From Flavobacteriales bacterium (lineage in GTDB: Bacteria > Bacteroidota > Bacteroidia > Flavobacteriales_E > Vicingaceae), in assembly GCA_018608405.1 (NCBI GenBank), contig JABAZP010000015.1, positions 91,853-155,852 on the forward strand: DNA of 64,000 bases, written 5' to 3'. A program made the position numbers and the translations under genes. Shown here one piece after another: positions 6,094 through 29,326 of this stretch. Position 1 is the stretch's first letter; each line of letters begins with the position of its first letter. The notes beneath the pieces are model-generated. The model made no database searches and was not told where the DNA came from. It saw nothing but the letters and a program-made list of their open reading frames with translations.

Positions 6094-6798
6094 CTATTTA
6101 TCTTGTTGAATTATCCTAACTTGTTCTCTTACTTGAGCCTTAATGTATTTCAAATAGCCGAAACCTTGCTGCAAAATCTGCAACATGCTCTTTTTGTAAA
6201 CCCTTCCTGAATTTAGATAGTTCATAAACTCATCCTGCTTTCTCAATTCATAAAATACTTCACCCTGAAAGGAGTAGTTAACCGGCGATGGATATATAAA
6301 GGGTGCATTTTGATCCATATAAGGAAGTGCAGTATTCAGTACAAACTCCTTTTCAACATAAAGCCAATCTTCCATTCTAGGATATATTACATTGTGTAAG
6401 TTGAGGTAATACCAAATAAGACTGTCTTTCCGTTCAATTGTCATGTCAGAATCAGTGTTGATCCTTTTATACGTATTTGCTGTTGCGTTGAAGGGCAGGT
6501 AAGAAGTGAAGTGGTCTAAAAATATCGTTAAACTGTCTGGGTTCAGTGTTCCCGTTTGGTACTCTAGCAAAGTGTCATGAGACCGCGCCATAATTTTATA
6601 AATATTAATGGTTCCTTCCTGTACTAGTGAGTCTGCATATAAATCTTTATTAATATCAACTAATAATTGTTCCTTCTTGGCTTCTAGTTTGTTACTTTCT
6701 TGCCATTCATTCACAATGAATGAAACTGTAATTCCGGCAATAATTACGATTAAATCAAAAAAATAAGATGACTTGGACTTTCGCAGTGTTCGTGACAT
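6094..6798 (-). CDS. DUF6090-like single-pass membrane protein
   Basis: This 234-residue protein has a short basic N terminus (MSRTLRKSKSS), one transmembrane helix (about residues 12-30, YFFDLIVIIAGITVSFIVNEW) and then a soluble, mostly helical domain. The helix followed by NEWQESNK and a charged coiled segment recalls the DUF6090 family common in Bacteroidota (hydrophobic helix followed by NNWNE). The function of that family is unknown to me. The downstream small membrane gene is nine bases away. The family assignment rests on pattern resemblance only. Confidence 0.6.
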   Translation of the reverse strand: MSRTLRKSKSSYFFDLIVIIAGITVSFIVNEWQESNKLEAKKEQLLVDINKDLYADSLVQEGTINIYKIMARSHDTLLEYQTGTLNPDSLTIFLDHFTSYLPFNATANTYKRINTDSDMTIERKDSLIWYYLNLHNVIYPRMEDWLYVEKEFVLNTALPYMDQNAPFIYPSPVNYSFQGEVFYELRKQDEFMNYLNSGRVYKKSMLQILQQGFGYLKYIKAQVREQVRIIQQDK

Positions 6799-6851: not shown

Positions 6852-7604
6852 CTAATTCAATTTACTTAGAAACAAGTTCATTGCTTCGCGTTTTTGTAGG
6901 TTAAAATCAAAGTCAATGTAGGTTGTCAAATATTCCTTTAGGTCTTCCTTGCTAATCATGGTTTGAGCTGATTTCTCAATGGAAGAGTCAAGTTGAAGTA
7001 ATCCATCGTGTAAGACCTTATTAAATTCGGCAATAAATTCCGACGAGAGCTTTTTGTTACTAACCCAAGCGGCAAAAACGAATGGTAAACCTGTTAGTTT
7101 CTGCCATTCCTCAGCCAAGTCAAATTGGTAAGAATAGTCTTTCTCAAAATGAAAGGTTCTGTCGCCAATAATTACACCTGCAGTTGTGCCTGCAATTTGG
7201 CTTTCAAATCCGGTTTCTCCCGCAATGAACGTAGGTGTTATGTTCCATAGTTCTTTGCACAGCACTTTACATAAATTAACAGAGGTGCGCGAATGATAAT
7301 CCAAATAAATGCTCTCAATTTCTTCCAAGGGAACATCGCTCACCAACAAAACTGATTTTACTTTGCCAACAGCACCAATACAATAGTCAGATATTACATG
7401 GGCCTCTTTTAAGTTTGGAATTGCCGCTACCGGAATTAATCCCAAATCTACTTCTCCGTCAATTAGTTTTCTAGCACATTCAGATGGGATATCCTTGTGC
7501 AATTCTATTTGCTCTAGAAATGATTCATTATTCTCAATACCAAACACCAAAGGGGTAGTGTTGAGGTAAGAGACAATCGATATTTTTACTTTTTCCAAGG
7601 TCAA
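6852..7604 (-). CDS. mqnA: Menaquinone biosynthesis protein MqnA (chorismate dehydratase)
   Basis: First enzyme of the futalosine pathway; it dehydrates chorismate to 3-[(1-carboxyvinyl)oxy]benzoate. The 250 residues begin with the family signature ISIVSYLNTTPLVFGI and contain DLGLIPVAAIP and the DYHSRTSVNL block of the periplasmic-binding-protein-like fold. There is no ATG at the expected place: the reading frame starts at TTG (7604), with a second TTG two codons in. mqnB and mqnD lie at 16.2-17.7 kb on the other strand. The remaining pathway genes (mqnC, mqnE) are not in this window. Confidence 0.88.
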   Translation of the reverse strand: MTLEKVKISIVSYLNTTPLVFGIENNESFLEQIELHKDIPSECARKLIDGEVDLGLIPVAAIPNLKEAHVISDYCIGAVGKVKSVLLVSDVPLEEIESIYLDYHSRTSVNLCKVLCKELWNITPTFIAGETGFESQIAGTTAGVIIGDRTFHFEKDYSYQFDLAEEWQKLTGLPFVFAAWVSNKKLSSEFIAEFNKVLHDGLLQLDSSIEKSAQTMISKEDLKEYLTTYIDFDFNLQKREAMNLFLSKLN

Positions 7605-7629: not shown

Positions 7630-8412
7630 TCAAACTTGAATTTGCTTGCTCTTTTTGTGCAGGGATATAGTTGCTGCAACAGCTGATATAATCGCAACAA
7701 AAGAGGACAAAGCAATTCCGATTAAAGGAATCGCTAATACTAGTGCAAACACAATTCCATTGCCCATTACAATTCCCCTGTTCTTCTTCATGTAATTCAC
7801 ACTTTCAGACACAGTGTATTGCTTCCGTTCGAGGTTGTAATCAATAAAGGAGAAACCATAATAATAAGCAGATACAAGTATCAGGATAGGGGAGGTGCCT
7901 AGCCCTAAAAGCGGAACGAAACTTAACCCAAATAGCAAAACGATAAAAAGCATTTCAAAAGCAGAATTTCGAATTGAGATTCGAATTCCCCGCACGATGT
8001 CAATAAGCAGCTGTTTTAGGGTGAAAGGATATTCATTGCCTTCTAAAATGCTTTCTGTTTTTTCTGAGACTATTGCTAAGATGGGTGACATCAAAATAAG
8101 GACTACATGACCTCCTAAAAATGCAAGAATTAGAAACACTAGTACTTTTAAAATAATCCAAAGAAAAAAATGAACCGTTTGGGACAGAAACTCTGAACCC
8201 CAGAACTCCCAGCTGTCGATTTCTATACAGCTTTCCGTCCAAACCAACACTTCATCCGACAATTCACCAAGAAAATGAAACCCTGTGGTAAAAAACAAAA
8301 TATTCAATACAACTGGCCACAAAAAGTAGCGTTTCATTTTGTTTTTTAAGACAAACTCAATCGCACTTCCATAGGAGGAGACAGCAGTGGTTATATTCGA
8401 TAAAAGTGTCAT
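7630..8412 (-). CDS. EI24-domain (CysZ-like) integral membrane protein
   Basis: The 260 residues contain about five or six transmembrane segments in the arrangement of the EI24/CysZ family: an N-terminal amphipathic stretch, FLWPVVLNILFF, long paired helices around residues 80-115, and two C-terminal helices. CysZ in proteobacteria is a sulfate channel, but Bacteroidota members are uncharacterised, so no substrate is assigned. The ATG overlaps the stop of the upstream endonuclease pseudogene (ATGA), which suggests historical cotranscription with the restriction-modification locus. Confidence 0.75.
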   Translation of the reverse strand: MTLLSNITTAVSSYGSAIEFVLKNKMKRYFLWPVVLNILFFTTGFHFLGELSDEVLVWTESCIEIDSWEFWGSEFLSQTVHFFLWIILKVLVFLILAFLGGHVVLILMSPILAIVSEKTESILEGNEYPFTLKQLLIDIVRGIRISIRNSAFEMLFIVLLFGLSFVPLLGLGTSPILILVSAYYYGFSFIDYNLERKQYTVSESVNYMKKNRGIVMGNGIVFALVLAIPLIGIALSSFVAIISAVAATISLHKKSKQIQV

Positions 8413-9097
8413 GGTGTGGTTTTCAAATATGTGACCAAAGATAAAGGTTCTTTAGCATCTCTTTCTAAATTGCAGCACCAAAACTCACGCATTCCGTATT
8501 TCCATTTTTGCAGGTGTTGAGGTTTTTCATTGATTTGTTGAATCAGTTCGGCTTTGTCTATCCAACCTATGAGAAAAGTGTCTGTTTCATATCGAAATGC
8601 AGCTAATTGCTCATAAACCTCTTCCAGTTTAGAGTCAAATTGAATGGTTTGTTTTTTTAACCAGTCATCTTTGCGCAATCACAACTGTTTAAATGCAATT
8701 TGTACGTGAATGTCTCCATCTAATCCTTCAATGGTTTATCCTTTCGTCGAATGAGTTTAATGTCTCTGCGATTCATCATTTCAAGTAAATCCTGATCTAC
8801 GTCGGGGATTAACGATGTTTTAAGTTCTACTTCCATTCTTTTGGATCCAACTTCGTAAACAAAATCAATGTCCATTCCGGAAGAGTAGTCTTTAATGTTC
8901 GATTCTTTAAACTCAATGTTATGTGATTTTGCCCATTTTTTAAAGGCAATTTCACCCACATAACCTCTCAATTTACTGTCTAAAGCCACGTTAGGGTGTC
9001 GATTCCGTAAATTATCAATAAAATTTTGTTGTAAAGCAGTGTGAAGAGCGGTAAGAATTTCTTCCTTTGAAAGTGGTATGTCAACTATCGCACTCAC
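8409..9097 (-). pseudogene. Restriction endonuclease remnant (frameshift plus in-frame TGA)
   Basis: A GTG start at 9097 overlaps the methyltransferase stop (GTGA). The first 125 codons encode a PD-(D/E)XK-like core: GYVGEIAFKKW, then MDIDFVYE, then MEVELKTS, giving the E, D and ExK pattern of type II-like nucleases. The frame then breaks at an AAA run (8735-8737 on the plus strand). Adding one A would continue as DKTIEGLDGDIHVQIAFKQL, reach TGA at 8679-8681, and go on in the same frame as RKDDWLKKQ to a stop at 8409. The restored protein would be about 229 residues. The C-terminal part (FLIGWIDKAEL, FWCCNLERD) reads like genuine protein. The nuclease identity is inferred from motif spacing and from the methyltransferase neighbour. 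As it stands the gene should not yield full-length enzyme. Confidence 0.75.
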
Positions 9098-10371
9098 TTT
9101 TTGACACGTACTTTAAAATATTTCAATTGGTTGCCTTCTAAACCTTTTACTAGTTTGCCTCTTCTTGTTTTGAATCCTTCAATTACCGCCTTGTTTCTGG
9201 CATAAGTTACCTCTTCGCAAATATTGTTTTCATTGTTGGTAATTAAGGTGCAAGACCTTTTTCCTCCGTCTTTTTTATTTTGAAGCATCGTGGCATGCAG
9301 GGTAGTGCCGCTACCTGCAAAAAAGTCTAATACGTTAATTTCTTTATTAGGAATTAAATCAAGGACAAACTGCAATAAATCCGTTGGTTTGGGATAACTG
9401 AAGATATCTTGTTTTAATATGTCTTTCAACTCGTTACTTCCTTTTGAGTTGTTGAAATCAATCAACGCTCTATAAGGCAACTTCCGGACTCGAATTTCAT
9501 CCTTATTATCTACGAATTGGTATTGTTTGATGTAGACCTTCCATCCTTTGGGTGTTTCTTTAAATACAATGTAATCGTTTTTAATTCCCCACTTGAACTT
9601 TTCCTTTCCCCATCGTCAAGTATTAGGCCGGCCAAGCGCACCGCCGGAAAGCATTATTGTACCATCCGGTGCCGTAATTTCATAATCTAGCGTTTTACTG
9701 TAACTGCCTTTGTAATCTAAATCTCGCAAGTAATACTTTCCTCTACGCTTAACGAATCGATCTTCGTATTTATACTTCTTGTCACTTTCGACATCTACCG
9801 TTTCTTGGTTAAAAACCAAGGTGTTAATGTTCTTTGCATAACACAACATGTAATCAAATTCAACCGCCACTTGTTTGCTATCGTGTCCGCTACCTGCTGT
9901 GTTTTTTCGAATAAAATTGGCAACAAAGTTTTGCTCACCAAAAATACCGTCGCAAATTAGTTTTAAGCGTGCCTGTTCAGCATCGTCTATCGCTAAAAAG
10001 ATGACTCCGTTGTCGGAAAGAAGTTGTTTCGCTTTTTGCAGTCGTTTGTGCATAAAAGAAGACCAGGTCGAATGACGAGCTTCGTCTTCGGTGTTGAAAT
10101 AGGTGTCTGTGTATTTAAAGTCTTTATTTCCTGTATTGTATGGAGGGTCAATGTAGATTAGGTCAAACGTTTCACCTTTTTTGTTAAGCAAATGAAGTGC
10201 TCCTAAATTATCGCCTTCAATAATTTGATGAACGGGACCTACCTTTCCAACTTTTCTAGATTTTACTTCGGTAAGTGAAAGTAGATCCTTTGCAATGTGC
10301 TGCTCAACTTCTTCTGCTTTATTCTCCCAATAAAGTCCGTTGAGATATACGAAGTTGGCGTTGGTTTTCAA
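9094..10371 (-). pseudogene. Beta-class N6-adenine DNA methyltransferase interrupted by one TGA
   Basis: One continuous frame of about 425 codons is broken only by TGA at 9616-9618. Upstream are DPPYNTGNKDF (motif IV, about residues 75-85) and a target-recognition-like segment. Downstream are LDFFAGSGTTLHAT (motif I) and NNENNICEEVTYAR. This IV-before-I order is the beta class typical of type III Mod and related type II enzymes (PF01555 family). The residues around the stop read RPNT-stop-RWGKEKFKWG; related enzymes usually have Trp there, so TGG to TGA is the likely change. The start is a TTG at 10371 with an in-frame stop just upstream, so the N terminus may be complete or slightly eroded. 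The endonuclease partner follows with overlap. Confidence 0.85.
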
Positions 10372-10454: not shown

Positions 10455-11618
10455 CTATACTTTTCTTCGGTTTAACTCCTTCTGGATTAGACTCAATTCT
10501 CTACTCGTTTGACCGGCAACTGAAGTGTTTTCTTCAGCTCTTCGAATCAAATACGGCATCACTTCAATCACAGGGCCGTAGGGTACATATTTTGCAACAT
10601 TAAAGTTCACCTTGGACAGGTTGTAACTAATGTGGTCGCTCATTCCTAAAAGTTGAGAAAAATAGATACGCTGGTCATTTTCTAAAATCTGATTTTCTTT
10701 CATGATTTCAGTCAATAGTAAAGAACTCTTTTCATTGTGAGTTCCTGCGCAAATCGATATTCTATTGATTTTTTCTACACAAAATCGAATGGCTTTATCA
10801 TAATCTACATCTGTTGCTGCTTTGGTCGGTTGAATAGGAGAGTTATATCCTTTCTTTTGTGCCCTTGCTCTTTCCTTCTCCATGTATGCTCCTCTTACGA
10901 TTTTTAAACCCACGTAAAAATCTCCTTCTTCAGCTTGCTTGTATAGGTTTTGAATGTATAAGAAACGGTCGTGACGATACATTTGTGCGGTGTTGTACAC
11001 AATTGGTCGCTCCAAATTGTATCGGGTCATCATTAAATGGGCAATTTCATCAATTGCTTCTTGAATCCAACTTTCTTCCGCATCAATCATCAAGGGAATT
11101 TCCGCATTAAAAGCGTTTTGAGCAATAATGTCAACACGATTTCTTCCCTTTAAAAACTTCATGCTTTCTTCTTCTGAAAGGGTAGATTTCGCGCTCACTT
11201 TTTCTAAAAGATCAAAGGGAATTAAGCCAGTTAACTTGATCACGCAAAAAGGCACATTTTGGTCCAATTTCGCTCGTTCAATAGAAGAAACAGCTTTCCC
11301 CAAACACAAGTCAAAATCAGATTCATCTTGTTTACCTTCAACAGAATAGTCTAAAATTGTTTTTATATTGAATTTCGCAAGTGCTTGAATTCTGCTTTCG
11401 CAGTCTAAAATATCTTCTCCTCCGCAAAAATGATCGTATACTGTTGCTCTAATTAAACCTTTAATAGGAAGTTTCATGGCCAGGGCAAGAGTAGTTAGCC
11501 GTGTTCCAATTTTAGTTAAAACAGAATTACCAATAAGCCTAAAGAGTAGATTGGCTCTCCTTAGTTCATGATTGCTTTTATTCGCAAAGGCAATCTTGGT
11601 GTTTTCAAATGAAATCAT
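10455..11618 (-). CDS. Proline dehydrogenase family protein
   Basis: FAD-dependent oxidation of proline to pyrroline-5-carboxylate, the first step of proline catabolism. The 387-residue length fits the stand-alone Bacteroidota enzyme. Motifs of the PutA-type barrel are visible: TILDYSVEG, CVIKLTGL, PLMIDAEESW, KIVRGAYMEKER (about residue 240) and AGTHNE. The C-terminal RRAEENTSVAGQTSREL is the conserved substrate- and FAD-contact block. The ATG overlaps the fabD stop (TAATG), so it is translated from the fabD transcript. The next enzyme of the route is not in the window. Confidence 0.9.
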   Translation of the reverse strand: MISFENTKIAFANKSNHELRRANLLFRLIGNSVLTKIGTRLTTLALAMKLPIKGLIRATVYDHFCGGEDILDCESRIQALAKFNIKTILDYSVEGKQDESDFDLCLGKAVSSIERAKLDQNVPFCVIKLTGLIPFDLLEKVSAKSTLSEEESMKFLKGRNRVDIIAQNAFNAEIPLMIDAEESWIQEAIDEIAHLMMTRYNLERPIVYNTAQMYRHDRFLYIQNLYKQAEEGDFYVGLKIVRGAYMEKERARAQKKGYNSPIQPTKAATDVDYDKAIRFCVEKINRISICAGTHNEKSSLLLTEIMKENQILENDQRIYFSQLLGMSDHISYNLSKVNFNVAKYVPYGPVIEVMPYLIRRAEENTSVAGQTSRELSLIQKELNRRKV

Positions 11619-28695: not shown

Positions 28696-28825
28696 ATAGG
28701 AGTAATTGATGCGCCGTCTGTTTTAGGATGAAAAATCAAAAACAAATGATGAATGGTTACTTGTGGCATAAAATTGTTATACCGAGTATCTAAGAGATTA
28801 AATTTGTTAACTAAAGTTGAACCTT

Positions 28826-29326
28826 ATGAAAAATCTAAAACGAATAATCAGAATTACAGGTGTATATATTGTGGGAACCCTTTTTCTTATTTCTTGTGCG
28901 CAAGATGGAAGGGACGGCAGAGATGGTAGAGATGGCTTTGACGGCTTCGATGGAAGAGATGGTGTGGCAAACATACAGAGCAACACGTACTTTGTTGGTA
29001 CGGGAGATTGGAATACTACCTCGTTCGGAGCGGAAGTAAATGTTTCAAATCCGGCTATAACTGCCGATGTTGTGGCAACTGGACTCGTTCAAGCATACTT
29101 TTCTTTGGACGCAAATCCGAACACAAGACGTTGGATTGCTTTACCTTACTACGACTTTAGTTATTCTTACGTTCAAGGTTTTACAACCTTTGAGCATTAT
29201 GACAATCCCGGTTCACCTGATGATTTATAGTATAAGGTTGTTGTTATTCCCCAAGCTGCAAGAATTGATGGACTTAATTTAAACGATTACGAAGCCGTTA
29301 GTACGGTTTATGGCTTAGAGGACTAA
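28826..29326 (+). pseudogene. Collagen-like lipoprotein gene with internal TAG
   Basis: ATG at 28826 begins a lipoprotein signal (hydrophobic core, then LISC lipobox). It is followed by seven Gly-X-Y triplets (GRDGRDGRDGFDGFDGRDG) and a globular part. The frame stops at TAG (29228-29230), but it continues in phase for another 31 codons as YKVVVIPQAARIDGLNL, then NDYEAVSTVYGLED and TAA (29324-29326). The end block with KVVVIP and a C-terminal NYEAV-like motif is what I would expect of the Bacteroidota collagen-like lipoprotein family, so the TAG looks like a recent nonsense change (CAG to TAG is the simplest). The function of the family is unknown. A 134-residue truncated form could still be made. 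Confidence 0.75.

Follow-up and report, generated by a model that had tools for sequence, protein, structure and literature searches.

A two-gene restriction-modification (RM) system, lying on the chromosome at a site shared across the family, has very probably been inactivated recently in the lineage of the window. The window is the whole stretch of DNA that was analyzed, 64,000 nucleotides from a Flavobacteriales bacterium (GCA_018608405.1, contig JABAZP010000015.1, positions 91,853 to 155,852), and its genome groups with marine Flavobacteriales metagenome-assembled genomes (MAGs). The methyltransferase gene (M) and the nuclease gene (R) are both interrupted, and the genes on either side are intact. 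An RM system is regarded as difficult to lose, since loss of the methyltransferase in the presence of a live nuclease kills the cell. A site at which both genes are freshly broken, and which is variably kept or absent in relatives, opens the order and speed of such a loss to study; the locus is an ordinary yet unusually clean snapshot of the loss of a bacterial defence. The features are given below in window coordinates.

6852..7604, minus strand: putative MqnA-like neighbour; intact and syntenic (open reading frame list and synteny)
7630..8412, minus strand: EI24/CysZ-like membrane protein, downstream neighbour; intact, its start overlapping the stop of R
8409..9097, minus strand: broken gene R, PD-(D/E)XK-like nuclease (alignment over the full length of nine homologues with unbroken frames; homologue in relative G003 modelled by AlphaFold; Foldseek)
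8679..8681, minus strand: second lesion of R, TGA in place of an Arg codon shared by all nine relatives (five CGA, three AGA, one CGC)
8735..8737, minus strand: first lesion of R, one base missing from an A run (AAA codon in the three same-genus relatives)
8819..8872, minus strand: catalytic region of R, D76-x-D78 ... E91-L-K93, still present in the window and without variation among nine relatives
9094..10371, minus strand: broken gene M, type III Mod-like beta-class N6-adenine DNA methyltransferase (PF01555, 1e-34; PADLOC MTase_III, 1.2e-89)
9616..9618, minus strand: lesion of M, TGA at Trp (TGG in all eight readable relatives)
10455..11618, minus strand: proline dehydrogenase, upstream neighbour; intact and syntenic (open reading frame list and synteny)

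The interrupted nuclease gene

R is present as two minus-strand fragments. The N-terminal fragment encodes 125 aa (9097-8720, GTG start, TAG stop) and the C-terminal fragment 89 aa (8678-8409). Adding a base to the AAA run (TTT on the plus strand, 8735-8737) and reading through the TGA at 8679-8681 brings the two into one frame. Leaving the frame at the first lesion results in termination at the TAG at 8722-8720, and the second lesion is a codon change from CGA to TGA. The GTG start of R overlaps the stop of M (GTGA), and its stop overlaps the start of the EI24 gene (ATGA).

A preliminary description of this DNA had proposed that a frameshift and a stop split one nuclease gene of about 229 residues. 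Comparison with the intact loci of related genomes, nine of which carry a whole R, bears this out. Each of the nine homologues is a single uninterrupted open reading frame, with an Arg codon in all nine where the window has the TGA and, at the site of the lost base, AAA in the three same-genus relatives. The restored protein has 229 residues, the same length as the homologue of the same-genus relative G003, and aligns with the nine over its full length at 48-79% identity.

The assignment of R to the PD-(D/E)XK nucleases, also made in the preliminary description, is supported because D76, D78, E91 and K93 (D76/D78...E91-x-K93) are invariant across the nine homologues and the predicted structure agrees. 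The AlphaFold model of the G003 homologue (mean pLDDT 86, pTM 0.85) places the two halves of the motif on neighbouring strands of the predicted fold (75-83 and 86-97). Foldseek matches of this model to the PDB are weak, the best being R.SwaI (E 0.08), and many of the other weak matches belong to the PD-(D/E)XK superfamily (MGME1, Hjc). Matches to predicted viral proteins have E values of 1e-4 to 2e-4 with a probability of 1.00, and two of these proteins are annotated as restriction endonucleases. Searches of Pfam, NCBIfam, PADLOC and PDB sequences gave no reliable match by which R could be named; the PADLOC matches were weak and involved only one of the nine members. The family appears to be undescribed in the libraries searched. 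Searches of plasmids, phages and viral contigs found no R. Its fold, context and conservation suggest that R had restriction activity. In the window, a product truncated near residue 121 would keep the D, E and K residues and would lack a later core strand and helix.

The interrupted methyltransferase gene

The methyltransferase beside the nuclease is also broken, as the preliminary description had held. M has 425 codons when read through and is 62-83% identical to its counterparts in the relatives that carry R. The DPPY motif (motif IV) precedes FAGSG (motif I), which is the beta-class pattern. In PADLOC, type III Mod models score far better than type II models, and a PDB sequence search with M finds Mbo45V at 2.7e-43. 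The sole defect is a codon change from TGG to TGA. This stop falls between the catalytic DPPY and the AdoMet motif FAGSG; therefore, the truncated M should be dead. A product ending at residue 251 would be missing the AdoMet-binding motif I.

In the intact relatives, M would methylate a specific site and R would cut the same site when it is unmethylated, providing defence against phages and plasmids. In the lineage of the window, neither protein is expected to be functional.

Lesions relative to the genomic background

The lesions could instead be errors of sequencing or of a metagenome-type assembly, with both genes whole in the living organism. Most of the relatives' records are labelled MAGs and the window genome may be one too, and the contig has two more nonsense differences in genes other than M and R. 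The background was estimated from 0.84 Mb of this genome and 0.60 Mb of the same-genus genome G004, which share 185 orthologues covering 193 kb. M and R are two of the nine orthologues flagged in this genome. About four of the other flagged genes seem to have interior lesions, a reading checked at the level of single bases for some of them, and the remainder are flagged near gene starts. Three lesions thus fall within the 2 kb of M and R, whereas the other genes have about four in 191 kb, making the density at the locus about 75 times higher (Poisson P ~1e-5, uncorrected for the fact that the locus was picked by its lesions). This clustering argues against random assembly error, as does the independence of the lesions, which are two different substitutions and one indel. 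The reverse comparison flagged 6 of 192 genes in G004, a similar background, so the assembly does not seem to be unusually error-prone. Error, or a mixture of strains, is therefore an improbable explanation for the state of the two genes.

In the gene at 28811-29323 of the window (contig C37, 120663-121175), for which no Pfam match was found, position 158 of 189 is TAG in place of the Trp (TGG) of the G004 orthologue. On the same contig but outside the window, position 206 of 227 in a Crp-family regulator (C37, 35644-36318), within the DNA-binding domain, is TAA in place of the Lys (AAA) of the G004 orthologue.

Other readings of the interrupted frames

It is also conceivable that the nuclease alone is dead and that M stays active at a low level, through misreading of the TGA as Trp or joining of the two halves. 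The TGA sits at a Trp codon, so misreading would restore the native residue, and the next base is C; TGA followed by C is a leaky stop context in E. coli. Both halves are well conserved, with three unique amino acid changes in the 173 codons past the stop, and two-part methyltransferases such as M.AquI exist. However, the sole start of the C-terminal half is a late TTG, selection for methylation without R is not evident, and a recent stop explains the preservation equally well. Residual methylation is therefore quite unlikely. Still less likely is the idea that R represents two genuine small genes or is expressed by programmed frameshifting or recoding. That idea can be practically dismissed although both fragments are open reading frames, since homologues encoding them separately were looked for and found in none of the nine, all of which are single frames; the slip site is no standard slippery heptamer, readthrough of the TGA would be needed as well, and TGA is an ordinary stop in the window (it ends 10 of 46 long open reading frames).

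Age and order of inactivation

Inactivation of both genes is probably recent because both frames are as constrained as in intact relatives. The changes unique to the window in M are 12 amino acid and 40 synonymous, compared with 15/29, 17/32 and 16/20 in its sisters. In R they are 12 and 15, compared with 5/13, 13/13 and 11/9. Neither gene has an excess of unique amino acid changes over its intact sisters, with synonymous sites near saturation. Simple Poisson bounds put the neutral share of the branch at about 15% or less for M and at no more than 19-39% for R, the latter figure varying with the background assumed. The earlier term "restriction-modification fossil" was therefore overstated: constraint is not relaxed in either gene, and the sequences point to a system that has been recently inactivated.

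The preliminary description had also proposed that the nuclease died first. Stepwise loss of RM systems beginning with the restriction endonuclease is the published expectation (PMC6471742). By addiction logic, R must have been inactivated no later than M. This order is allowed by the lesions and required by that logic; however, two lesions in R compared with one in M is not a significant difference, and any relaxation in either gene is too slight to date its loss. Dating the order by substitution excess was set aside, since neither gene has such an excess and synonymous sites are near saturation.

Comparison with known systems

The pair resembles type II RM systems in that M and a PD-(D/E)XK nuclease are separate adjacent genes, but by profile score M is much closer to type III Mod than to type II. 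Genes for a helicase, a specificity subunit or a controller were not seen beside M and R. Type III systems (EcoP15I, Mbo45V) have the Mod proteins nearest to M by sequence. However, M has 425 aa compared with about 600 aa for Mod, and it is followed by a nuclease of 230 aa rather than a DEAD/DEAH helicase. In the intact loci, no Res-like helicase lies directly beside the pair, and the 230-aa nuclease follows M in all nine relatives. By contrast, in the four plasmid Mod relatives inspected, annotated methyltransferases of about 600 aa are followed by DEAD/DEAH helicases. The locus is also similar to the decaying RM systems and orphan methyltransferases known, for example, from Halobacteria (PMC6471742), in which RM is under loss and the nuclease is inactivated. 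It differs from these in that both genes are hit yet are otherwise conserved, whereas the commoner survivor is the methyltransferase alone.

Relatives and distribution

The nine relatives with a whole R belong to the same family as the window genome (marine Flavobacteriales; Vicingaceae/UBA1494 group) and include three of the five other same-genus genomes. UBA1494 is a placeholder genus within Vicingaceae (PMC7214798). M is intact beside R in eight of the nine and partly readable in the other (G010), where bases are masked. The two genes overlap or are adjacent in every one of these loci. Acidiluteibacter ferrifornacis S-15 (NZ_WWNE01000007) is one relative with an intact M-R pair. Proline dehydrogenase adjoins the pair in all nine, and the EI24 and MqnA genes lie downstream in most. 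The site is empty in G023, where the gap from proline dehydrogenase to EI24 is about 170 bp and contains no match to M or R, and in G013 an unrelated gene occupies the spot between the flanking genes.

Counting the window genome, R is present in 10 of the 46 genomes of the order sample. A sample of 395 genomes from across the phylum yielded a single distant homologue (G216), which lies in a different setting. The scan of 85,000 species for R used two short peptide patterns only, so distant relatives may escape it. Trees of M, R and the flanking genes recover the same main groups, with poor resolution within the genus.

The locus might tentatively be seen as a natural time series for the loss of an addictive defence. 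On this somewhat doubtful reading, a helicase-free pair, consisting of an unclassified PD-(D/E)XK nuclease and a type III Mod-like methyltransferase of reduced length, has been resident at one core chromosomal site across the family, with mostly vertical inheritance, and its successive states are intact, point-mutated and cleanly absent.

Several individual genomes have features of their own. The proline dehydrogenase of G003 (L081, 808-1968) is displaced in its tree relative to the trees of M and R, and is 59% identical to that of the window, compared with 79-84% in two other same-genus genomes. It is possible that this gene was replaced by recombination or that the bin is mixed. G001 has two small genes between R and EI24 (L004, 447-1077) which by eye resemble a ParD/ParE-type toxin-antitoxin. 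In G005, a methyltransferase with 57% identity (L089, 7615-8820) lies beside a serine recombinase-like gene, and there is no R gene next to it. The R homologue of G216 (L179, 9196-9885) is directly 3' of a MutS2-like gene and is followed by other DNA methyltransferase-like genes, among which there is no Mod-like M. The window gene at 6094-6798 has an orthologue in G004 that is split into two frames (L070, 9633-10326).
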